A stretch of DNA of 64,000 nt. Origin: Phycisphaerae bacterium. Lineage in GTDB: Bacteria; Planctomycetota; Phycisphaerae; UBA1845; PWPN01. Both the position numbers and the translations under genes were made by a program. The notes beneath the pieces were generated by a model. It did not search any database and had not been told where the DNA came from. It worked only from the letters and a program-made list of their open reading frames with translations. Of the stretch, positions 3,125-54,527 are shown piece by piece (positions within the stretch are counted from its first letter, which is position 1; the number at the start of each line of letters is the position of its first letter). The DNA lies in the NCBI GenBank assembly GCA_012719955.1, contig JAAXZI010000041.1, positions 1 through 64,000 on the forward strand. Direction: 5' to 3'.

Positions 3125-3298
3125 GGATGCACATCTCCAGGAAAAAGCGGTCGCGGAACACCGGACCGGATCAAACTCCAGGCACGGCTCGCCGAGCCGT
3201 GGCACACAAAGAAAACCAACTCCCAGCACGGCCCTTCGAGCCGTGGCGCGCAACAAAAGCGGACCGTCTGTCCGCCGCAGGTGACGCGCGGGGAAATT

Positions 3299-9359: not shown

Positions 9360-9545
9360 GCCATCTTACCCGCCGGTCTCGGGGGGCGGGCATCTTGCCC
9401 GCCTTTCTGAATCCGAACGTGCAGCGGGCGTTTTGTCAGGAAATCGGGTGCCCCCCAGCCTTTGCCGGGGACGCGGCCCAACTGCTACAGAAGTATGGAA
9501 AACGGCGGGTACGGAGCCCGGCCGCTACACGCGGTGCGAATCTTA
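9360..9545. repeat. Partial copy of a composite intergenic repeat (modules A-B-C)
   Basis: ggggggcgggcatcttgcccgcctttctgaatccgaacg...gggcgttttgtcaggaaa...aacggcgggtacggagcccggccgctac; related sequence at ~38.5 kb and, inverted, at ~25.9 kb. Confidence 0.7.
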
Positions 9546-9855
9546 CCCCCCTGAAATGACCGCGCGCTGATGAGACAACCAAAGCACGAATTTGTGTGCC
9601 AGGGCTCTTGAGCCGTGCATGGACAGTGCCGACGTTCAGCACTACTCACCAGCAGTGGCACCCACAGCGTGGCAGTGGCTTCGAAAGACGTGTCGCGCGA
9701 TCGCGCACGGTCATTGGGTTTCGCGCGATCCACACCAGAGAAGCTGTGCGTTTGCTCAGTTCTGCTTGCACGCGCGCCGCCAACGGAGTAAAAGGAGCTT
9801 CGTTGCGGTGTTTTTCGCGCGCAATAGGATTTCGTTTACAAAGGATGATTCAACC

Positions 9856-25468: not shown

Positions 25469-25807
25469 ATGGACCAGCTCGGTGATCAGCACCCAGAGAG
25501 CACCAATCGCAAGTCACCATCCATCGATTACCTGTTGGCAGAGGGCTTCTTCGCAGCGGGGGCGGCACTGTCCTTCATTGCTGCATACAGTTTCTGGGTT
25601 CAAGTTCAGACCAGACCCGGTAATCCATCCAGCGAGATGCCCTTGTTTGCACCGGGGGTGGGCTGCACCGCATTTCTCTATGGGCTGGTTGATCTCCTCT
25701 GGCGGGATCGCTTGGAGCCAGTGATGGACCGCAAGACCACATGGTGCCTGCTGATCGGCCTGGGTGCGACACTCACTGGCTTCCTCTGGCCGGGGCTCTG
25801 GAGATAG
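25469..25807 (+). CDS. Hypothetical small membrane protein
   Basis: 112-aa ORF with hydrophobic segments. Confidence 0.45.
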   Translation: MDQLGDQHPESTNRKSPSIDYLLAEGFFAAGAALSFIAAYSFWVQVQTRPGNPSSEMPLFAPGVGCTAFLYGLVDLLWRDRLEPVMDRKTTWCLLIGLGATLTGFLWPGLWR

Positions 25808-25849
25808 CCCTAAGTCGCGTATCACCATAGCCGGCGGAAGTGGTTATTC

Positions 25850-26105
25850 TCCGCACTTCAGGAGCGGCCGGCCCGGGGCCTCGGGGAGAGTCGGGCGCCG
25901 GTTGTTTCCCCCGCAGCGACCGGGCTTTGTACCGGCTGTTCTCCGCTGTACCGTTCTCGCGTAGCGGCCGGGCTCTGTACCGGCCGTTTTCCGGACAAAA
26001 CGCCCGCCCCCCCCTGCATCGGCCGGACGCCGGCGCCACACTGGTTCTTCATCGGCAAGGCGCCGCTGGCGCACAGCGCGGCTCAAGAGCCGTGGCACTC
26101 AAATC
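25850..26105. repeat. Composite intergenic repeat, inverted copy
   Basis: Reverse complement carries gtgccacggctcttgagccg / gatgaagaaccagtgtggcgccggcgtccggccgatgcagg / ggggggcgggcgttttgtccggaaaa / cggccggtacagagcccggccgctac in the same order as the ~38.4-38.7 kb copy. Confidence 0.75.
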
Positions 26106-26140
26106 ACGCTCCTGCCGGTCGCACCCGCGCGCACGATCCG

Positions 26141-27031
26141 TCAGGACAGATTCACGACCTCGAAGTAGTGTTTGAAGAAGGCCTCCGGCGTCACGTCCAC
26201 CGCGACTTCGTGCGGCTTCTTCTCCGCGTTCGGATTGAAGTGCGTCAGGCCCTTGAGCCGCTCGCTCTGCAACTCCACTTCCACCCGGCCGGCCTGCCAC
26301 CGGCACAGCTCCGGCTCGAAGACCGCCGCTGCCGCCAGCGGATCGTGGAAGGTGATGACCGGGCGGCCCTTGAACCAGACCTCGGCCATCTCGCCGACGA
26401 TCCGCAGCGGCCCCTGGCTGAACCGCCGGCGACACTCCTCGGCCGGCATTGTGCAGCGGGTGGTGACCTCCAGCCCGACGGCCCGCGTGCCCGGAGCATT
26501 GGCCGCGAAGGCGATCGCGGTCGCGTGCGGGTCGAGCATCGCGTTCCACTCCAGCCCGCCGGGGGCGCTCCGGGTGAAAACGCCACCCATCAGCACCCAG
26601 CGCTTCAACAACGAGGGAATCTCCGGGTCCAGGGCAAAGAGCAGGCCGATGTTGGTCAGCGGTCCGACTGAGAGCAGAGTGATCTCGCCCGGGCGCGAAC
26701 GAATGGTCTGGCGCAGGAAATCCACCGCCAGGTTCGGCCCGAATTTATCGCGGTGCGGCCACTTCTCCAGCACCGTCCGCTGCGGCACCTCCGGCTGGCG
26801 CTGGGCGACCAGCAGCGGTCGGCCCGCGCCGGCATAAACGGGCACCTCCTTGCGGCCGAACGCCTGGCAGACCGCATCGACGAGCTGGGCGCGCACGAGC
26901 GGCTCGCCCGTAACGGTAGTCACGCCCAGCAGTTCACAGCGCGGCTGCTTGAGCAGGTAGGCCAGGGCCACGGCATCGTCGATGTCGCTGCCGATGTCGG
27001 TGTCGAACAGGACGGGGATCTTGTCGGACAT
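26141..27031 (-). CDS. Nucleoside hydrolase (inosine-uridine preferring-like)
   Basis: MSDKIPVLFDTDIGSDIDDAVALAYLLKQPRCELLGVTTVTGEP, GPLTNIGLLFALDPEI, VLMGGVF, HDPLAAAAVFEP. Confidence 0.93.
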   Translation of the reverse strand: MSDKIPVLFDTDIGSDIDDAVALAYLLKQPRCELLGVTTVTGEPLVRAQLVDAVCQAFGRKEVPVYAGAGRPLLVAQRQPEVPQRTVLEKWPHRDKFGPNLAVDFLRQTIRSRPGEITLLSVGPLTNIGLLFALDPEIPSLLKRWVLMGGVFTRSAPGGLEWNAMLDPHATAIAFAANAPGTRAVGLEVTTRCTMPAEECRRRFSQGPLRIVGEMAEVWFKGRPVITFHDPLAAAAVFEPELCRWQAGRVEVELQSERLKGLTHFNPNAEKKPHEVAVDVTPEAFFKHYFEVVNLS

Positions 27032-33399: not shown

Positions 33400-33417
33400 G
33401 ATGGCTCTTTAGTTCAG

Positions 33418-33636
33418 CCGTTGGTGAGGGTACCGGCGCTTGGCGGATCTTTCCGCCGGTGAGGGCACCGGCGGCACTTTGATGGCCAGTTCCTTCCGGT
33501 GGTGGGGACGCCGGTGCTTGGCGGGCCCCTCCGCGGGTGAAGGCACCGGCGCTTGGCGGGGTCTTTCCGCCGGTGAAGGCACCGGCGCTTGGCGGGGTCT
33601 TTCCGCCGGTGAGGGCACCGGCGGCACTTAGGGAGG
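33418..33636. repeat. Degenerate ~36-bp tandem repeat array
   Basis: gccggtgaaggcaccggcgcttggcggggtctttcc-type units; two near-identical adjacent copies, ~4 degenerate ones, no spacers. Confidence 0.85.
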
Positions 33637-38382: not shown

Positions 38383-38720
38383 GGGCCGTGCCGGCTTTGT
38401 ATACCACGGCTCTTGGCCCGTGCGGCTTTGTGTGCCACGGCTTTTGAGCCGTGCTCTGTAGCACTAGCGTCTCGCCGGTGAAGAATCAGTGCGGCACCGG
38501 CGTCTCGCCGGTGCAGGAGCGGGCATCCGCCAGCATAGGGGGGCGGGCATCTTGCCCGCCTTCCTGAATCCGAATGGAGGGCAGGCGTTTTATTCGGGAA
38601 ACGGTTGGTCACCAGGCTCCCATGGAGGACACGATCCGGGCGCTACGGCGAGAACGGCCGGTACGGAGCCCGGCCGCTACGGAAGTGGGGAGAGCGACCG
38701 GTGCGGAAGTAGGGAGAGCG
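38383..38720. repeat. Composite intergenic repeat, forward copy
   Basis: gccacggctcttggcccgtg / gccacggcttttgagccgtg / gccggtgaagaatcagtgcggcaccggcgtctcgccggtgcagg / ggggggcgggcatcttgcccgccttcctgaatccgaa / aacggccggtacggagcccggccgctac. Confidence 0.8.
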
Positions 38721-39501: not shown

Positions 39502-39792
39502 CCGCAGGTGTTGCAGTTCCTCGTAGCGGGGCGACGCGGGCCTGAGGAGGGCGTGCATCCTGCACGCCTTTGAGGCGGGCGGGATACCCGCCCCCCTGAT
39601 GCGCCAGGCCGCTTGACCCTGATCCTTTGTCAGACTCGTAGCCCCAACGGGCTGTATTGACTGGGCTAATCGGGGTAAACTATCGTAGATTTTACAGAAA
39701 CTCACAGGCCGGGGAGCGCCCCTCAGGCGTCGCTGCTTTTAGGGTTTGGGGCGCCCTCCGAGGCTTGGGGTGTAAGGGAGTATCGATCTGTT

Positions 39793-51279: not shown

Positions 51280-51442
51280 TCGTAGCGGCCGGGCTCCGTA
51301 CCGGCCGTTACAGAAAATGACTCACTTTGCGCTGTCGGGCTGGAGCAGATGACGTGTGAGAGATGGAGAGTGTGAGCGATGGAGAGAGAAGACTGTCGCT
51401 CCCTCTCTCCATCGCTCCATCTCTCCTTCTCTCCATCTTTTC
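51280..51442. repeat. Intergenic repeat: module C copy plus gagagatgg-type inverted low-complexity sequence
   Basis: cgtagcggccgggctccgtaccggccgtt; then agatggagagtgtgagcgatggagag ... ctctctccatcgctccatctctcc. Confidence 0.75.
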
Positions 51443-54414: not shown

Positions 54415-54527
54415 GCATCGCATTCAGGAACGTGGCACCGGCGTCCGGCCGGTGATGGGGACGGGCGTTTCGCCCGTCGTGGGTCGAGCCAGTGAAGGCT
54501 CATGCCTGAAAGCGTGAGGGCATTACG

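Follow-up and report, generated by a model that had tools for sequence, protein, structure and literature searches.

We find that a palindrome-rich, non-coding interval in a Phycisphaerae bacterium (GenBank assembly GCA_012719955.1) is most probably one copy of an old, dispersed hybrid BIME, in which REPs of several families are combined with half of a MITE and which has spread as a unit, probably by means of a C-type RAYT. The interval lies at positions 25850-26105 of the window, by which we mean the whole 64,000-nt stretch of contig JAAXZI010000041.1 that was analyzed; the genome is metagenome-assembled and comprises 5.29 Mb in 262 contigs. A first-pass annotation had proposed that this interval and another at 38.4 kb share modules D, E, A/B and C in the same order on opposite strands. 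Each named module was located where it had been placed or a few bases away, and the two intervals are indeed copies of one composite, with the order F-D-E-E-A-l-(A)-B-C-C. The composite is roughly 300 nt long, and at least two dozen copies are scattered through the genome.

The copy at 25.9 kb is read on the minus strand. It opens with a module that the first-pass annotation had overlooked, F, which precedes D at about 26099-26138, begins 3 nt past the stop codon of a nucleoside hydrolase gene (26141) and is a remnant of a MITE-like terminal inverted repeat, of which it retains the left part (GATCGTGCGCGCGGGTGCGACCGGCAGGAGCGTGATTT). There follow, on the same strand, the D palindrome GTGCCACGGCTCTTGAGCCGCG (26077-26098), whose head here is TGAGTGC, of the TGTGTGC type; a decayed first E palindrome, placed at 26050-26074 relative to the composite consensus; linker e (GAAGAACCAGTGTGG, 26036-26050); and a second E palindrome with a GTGG head and a CACCGGCGTCTCGCCGGTG-type hairpin (26016-26039). 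The right-hand part consists of B, an A-like degenerate palindrome (GGGCGGGCGTTTTGTCCGGAAAA, 25987-26012), the RAYT-cognate C REP (25961-25986; CGGCCGGTACAGAGCCCGGCCGCTAC on the minus strand, with the GTAG head on the plus strand), and a second, diverged C (25913-25938). Of the module originally described as A/B, B is present at this locus and A is absent. B was seen only beside A or C.

The second composite of the window (38401-38680, plus strand) reads D-D-E-e-E-A-l-B-C and lies about 111 nt past the upstream gene. Sequences elsewhere in the window had been taken for partial versions, and here the picture is mixed. The interval 9360-9545, described as A-B-C, does contain a partial composite, A-l-B-C (9381-9528, plus strand), but the D-like sequence at 9595-9620 belongs to a separate and complete MITE-like F-D-D′-F′ element that adjoins it (9556-9714; D at 9596-9617 and D′ at 9640-9661). 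The palindromes reported at 3175-3255, 51286-51310 and 54430-54480 are real, but they are stand-alone REP-type sequences rather than partial composites: two D-like palindromes in direct repeat on the minus strand, outside any composite (3175-3255), an isolated C REP (51282-51309, minus strand; GTAGCGGCCGGGCTCCGTACCGGCCGTT on the plus strand) and an isolated E palindrome (54434-54458, plus strand). The window also carries A palindromes arranged tail-to-tail as a head-out dimer with short spacing (39546-39596), and imperfect GC-rich repeats of ~36 nt in tandem (CCGCCGGTGAAGGCACCGGCGCTTGGCG, 33410-33629).

Judged by their sequence, the palindromes C, A, E and D are REP-type. Isolated copies end sharply, with conservation falling abruptly beyond a short head and a hairpin. 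The C consensus is GTAG-CGGCCGGGCTCYGTACCGGCCG-TT, and conservation is confined to it among 67 aligned copies; aligned copies likewise give GGRG-GGCGGGCATCTTGCCCGCC-T for A and TGTGTGC-CACGGCTCTTGAGCCGTG-C for D, and the weaker E consensus is GTGG-CACCGGCGTCTCGCCGGTG, with GTGG present in the majority of copies. GT(A/G)G heads are a hallmark of RAYT-associated REPs (PMC2817692), and GTAG-tagged repeats occur in Planctomycetes (PMC3733652). C has all the features of a REP, with a GT(A/G)G head beside a GC-rich imperfect palindrome, sharp ends, an extragenic location and a high copy number. The GGRG head of A differs from the classical GTRG head, and the head of D is longer; a few A-like copies in other genomes carry GTGG or GTAG.

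A fuzzy scan of 860 kb recovered 44 copies of D, 66 of C, 74 of A, 19 of F and 9 of B, compared with 0, 0, 1, 0 and 0, respectively, in a block-shuffled control. The looser patterns used for E, e and l matched 14, 14 and 11 times versus 3, 9 and 3 in shuffled sequence, and are less specific on their own. Genome-wide, C has 306 matches at ≤3 mismatches (none for the reversed control) and A has 294 copies. Clusters with A, C or D mostly lie outside composites, as singlets, direct arrays or inverted pairs, and neighboring REP copies have a REPIN-like geometry. C pairs are head-out in seven cases and head-in in none; D pairs are head-out in nine and head-in in none, seven of the nine being spaced by 21-22 nt; adjacent A and C are head-out in 10 of 12 cases; and A pairs alternate between 3-nt head-out and 22-25-nt head-in spacings. 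The modules are mainly intergenic, with none of the 44 D copies and 4 of the 66 C copies falling in genes as called by a simple codon-usage script rather than a standard gene finder. C occurs more often in convergent than in divergent gaps (22 versus 4), though divergent gaps contain more bases, and it has no preference for gene strand (17 versus 15).

To characterize the composite as a family, we assembled 25 composite-type clusters, some from similarity hits and others from the 860-kb sample. The reading F-D-E-e-E-A-l-A-l-B-C-C, with some modules absent or duplicated, applies to nearly all of them, the exceptions being joined neighbors, in which another composite or an F element follows C, and a small number of neighbors in inverted orientation. 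Order statistics were drawn from the 860-kb sample together with the hit loci. In clusters of the sample, A precedes C on the same strand 21 times and never the reverse, and the corresponding counts are 8 versus 0 for E before A, 7 versus 0 for D before E and 11 versus 0 for B before C. The left end is variable, formed by F, D, E or A, and the right end is nearly always C. The heads of D, E and A point outward to the left and those of C outward at the right end, a head-out arrangement shared with RAYT-REP units and REPINs; orientation switches once within the composite. The linkers are non-palindromic and conserved; e, l, B and the spacer between the two C copies are common to the composites, and the A/B linker junction alone has 21 matches genome-wide (10 forward, 11 reverse; none in the control). 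In being a REP cluster with recurring inter-REP segments (the linkers e, l and B), the composite conforms in this respect to a BIME.

The composite cores are clearly related, with 299 of 300 pairs aligning at E≤0.01, and their identity ranges from 66 to 89% (median 75%, maximum 89%, for alignments of ≥100 nt). In contrast, the 95-nt flanks have essentially nothing in common. Because the flanks are unrelated and the copies are only 66-89% identical, the family is old and dispersed; segmental duplication is ruled out by the same unrelated flanks. No empty site for the composite was found. These results sustain the view that the interval belongs to a dispersed, non-coding composite whose order is conserved in both orientations. 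The accompanying contrast between an element and independent palindromes holds only in its first half, since each palindrome is also an independent high-copy repeat. Similarly, a genome-wide scan could have found the modules separately and in random order; they do occur independently, but in the company of the linkers their order is essentially invariant.

Several loci connect C with a transposase. A search of the genome for PF01797 gave six matches, one of which, on contig C18, is a gene flanked by perfect C copies at 1191-1216 and 1739-1764 that face head-out. This gene is frameshifted between its HUH motif (PDHLHV) and its tyrosine region (YIANNPIRRGL), which could be an assembly error of the metagenome-assembled genome. 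A relative, G061, carries an intact RAYT with HUH (EHLH) and YIVENP motifs and with C on both sides, upstream and, as five tandem copies, downstream. The contig C18 gene and its G061 homologue score just above the PF01797 cut-off, conserve the HUH (DHLH/EHLH) and YIVxNPVRAGL motifs and are 59% identical over their shared part (loci L035 and L042). The C REPs (26 nt) at the two loci are identical, and the two genomes belong to different families. In addition, a RAYT in G046 is preceded by C and followed by diverged C-like copies, and beside one in G088 there is a C copy, with one mismatch, on a single side. For other RAYTs of the order, the bracketing repeats are mostly GTAG palindromes of their own, different from C. 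By its bracketing and its head, C is the REP of a RAYT, an IS200/IS605-type transposase. The best-scoring Y1 transposases of the genome, on contigs C118 and C161, were considered as partners and rejected, as their flanks bear other palindromes; the RAYT-like gene on C161 (L032, 20-680) is flanked by another palindrome family (AGTAGCCACGGGTGGAGCGCAGCGGAACCCGTGG).

The genes on either side of the contig C18 RAYT encode a MoxR-type ATPase and a DUF58 protein. RAYTs at L035 (G000:C18 130-2688), L046, L049, L050 and L057 appear to lie in or beside this same gene pair, in several Phycisphaerae genomes of different families and with different cognate REPs, the neighbors having been read from flanking sequence and Pfam-confirmed only in L035. 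This distribution suggests that the MoxR-DUF58 pair is a long-lived RAYT locus.

We propose that at least four families of REP-type palindrome (D, E, A and C) were joined with B and F-D on a single occasion, in a set order, and that the joined composite, as its conserved linkers suggest, was then copied around the genome as a unit. By analogy with E. coli TnpA-REP, a RAYT (a HUH single-tyrosine transposase) would bind single-stranded DNA at the C hairpin and its GTAG head, cleave next to the hairpin and re-join the adjoining segment elsewhere. The E. coli enzyme requires GTAG, and its cleavage sites in single-stranded REP are CT dinucleotides next to the hairpin (PMC8266576). An active C-type RAYT probably once mobilized C-ended segments in this way, the composite included. 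Given the variable left end and the near-constant C at the right, 5′ truncation, gene conversion or REP recombination could also have spread or trimmed the composite. The family now looks inactive, since the sole C-flanked RAYT found in the genome is frameshifted and the composite copies have diverged.

The other modules appear to have had different histories. No pair of A, D or E copies bracketing a RAYT was found at the PF01797 loci examined in this genome (G000), in G012 and in other genomes. A genome of the same family, G004, rated 100% complete, contains 107 copies of A and no PF01797 gene above the cut-off. It is thus possible that A is an orphan, or that it is moved by another mobilizer. 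High copy numbers of A are confined to the window genome and two of its family-mates, which belong to one genus, whereas C is abundant in G061 and G074, both of another family, and is absent or nearly so from the family-mates of the window genome. Hence, parts with separate histories meet in this genome. Among the best few candidates per genome in 149 other genomes, only E-E or C pieces of the composite were recovered at E≤1e-8, and the composite is lineage-specific.

On a further and rather unlikely interpretation, the composite is a single mobile unit, a multi-address REPIN, whose left end (D, E or A) and right end (C) belong to different REP families. If so, each end of the cassette could be the target of a different transposase, and unrelated selfish palindromes would have been fused and co-mobilized.

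The F module raises the question of whether a DDE transposase that recognizes F moved the composite as a MITE, with the REPs as inserted passengers. F is the terminal inverted repeat (~15 bp) of the non-coding F-D-D′-F′ element of ~160 nt, which encloses an inverted D pair, and the left end of the composite is the left half of this element. The terminal inverted repeats are near-perfect (ATGACCGTGCGCGAT ... ATCGCGCACGGTCAT), and F and F′ are 159-169 nt apart at several loci, with further copies on contigs C40 (G000:C40:15488-15648), C53 (15487-15648) and C252 (30180-30348). Moreover, on contigs C222 and C216 the F repeats on either side of a composite are 474 and 411 nt apart. Nevertheless, most composites have no F on the C side and many have no F at all. 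No gene-sized F pair that might represent an autonomous partner occurs among the matches listed for the whole genome, and no target duplication is evident by eye at complete F elements. The element thus resembles MITEs in being short, non-coding and bounded by terminal inverted repeats, but no transposase with F ends was found and the composite holds the left half only. We therefore regard F-driven movement of the composite as improbable, and retain the hybrid BIME as the better account.

It is harder still to defend the composite as a selected RNA module of mRNA 3′ ends, a cluster of terminators or stabilizing hairpins whose order reflects RNA function, even though REPs have been proposed to act in termination and mRNA stability (PMC3733652). 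Of the 25 composites, 17 are oriented with the F/D side toward a gene's 3′ end, usually no more than about 80 nt from the stop codon; composites whose F/D side lies toward a 5′ end are 100-250 nt from it. This placement fits promoter avoidance. Where the adjacent genes run in the same direction, eight composites are oriented with them and three against, which is not significant, and individual C, A and D copies have no consistent preference for gene strand. A terminator or other strand-specific regulator was rejected as the primary nature of the composite for want of a significant gene-strand bias, and the varying number of modules also speaks against an RNA function. A 200-nt copy folds no more strongly than its shuffles (z −0.73, for a single strand with DNA parameters), and a known RNA family was rejected for want of any Rfam match up to E=1 over 25600-26400. 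Covariation, which the first-pass annotation had put forward as a check, is lacking in C, and compensatory stem changes in A are modest. A was the one module to surpass every shuffle (17 cells against a maximum of 14), possibly owing to subfamilies, and with A alone passing, covariation was set aside as proof of RNA. Of the earlier alternatives, mobile or regulatory, mobile DNA of the REP/BIME type is therefore upheld, and regulatory RNA as its primary nature is not; a secondary role in mRNA 3′ ends is possible.

About equally hard to credit is an origin by repeated, independent nested insertion of mutually targeting REPs, for although the REP families are each dispersed on their own and occur in arrays (AAAAA, DDDD, CCC), and REPINs inserted into or beside other REPINs are known (PMC3116915), the shared non-palindromic e, l, B and C-C spacer would not arise anew from independent insertions.

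The hybrid BIME that we favor has its closest counterpart in Stenotrophomonas, where RAYTs bracketed by inverted REPs and hybrid BIMEs have been described (Nunvar et al. 2010, PMC2817692). Both are intergenic clusters of REPs from several families with inter-REP segments, in genomes that carry RAYTs together with their own REPs. However, the Stenotrophomonas inter-REP segments have no mutual homology and are said to have arisen repeatedly (PMC2817692), whereas the fixed order and conserved linkers of the composite recur at about two dozen places and unite four palindrome families with half of a MITE-like element. REPINs (Bertels and Rainey 2011, PMC3116915) likewise have inverted REP pairs as their basic unit and RAYTs bracketed by the same REP, but the two ends of the head-out composite come from different REP families. 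Finally, C, here in a planctomycete, resembles in its tag the GTAG-tagged palindromic repeats of Di Nocera et al. (2013, PMC3733652), of which 24 families are published; A, E and D differ from these repeats in carrying GGRG, GTGG and TGTGTGC.

This account covers many palindromes of the window at once, and it links a seemingly odd repeat, modular and without coding content, to the biology of RAYTs and REPs in a phylum that has received little study. The composite offers a clear case in which several REP families and half of a MITE are locked in one order and dispersed. What constitutes the replicating unit of REP DNA thereby becomes a question that can be tested by sequence.
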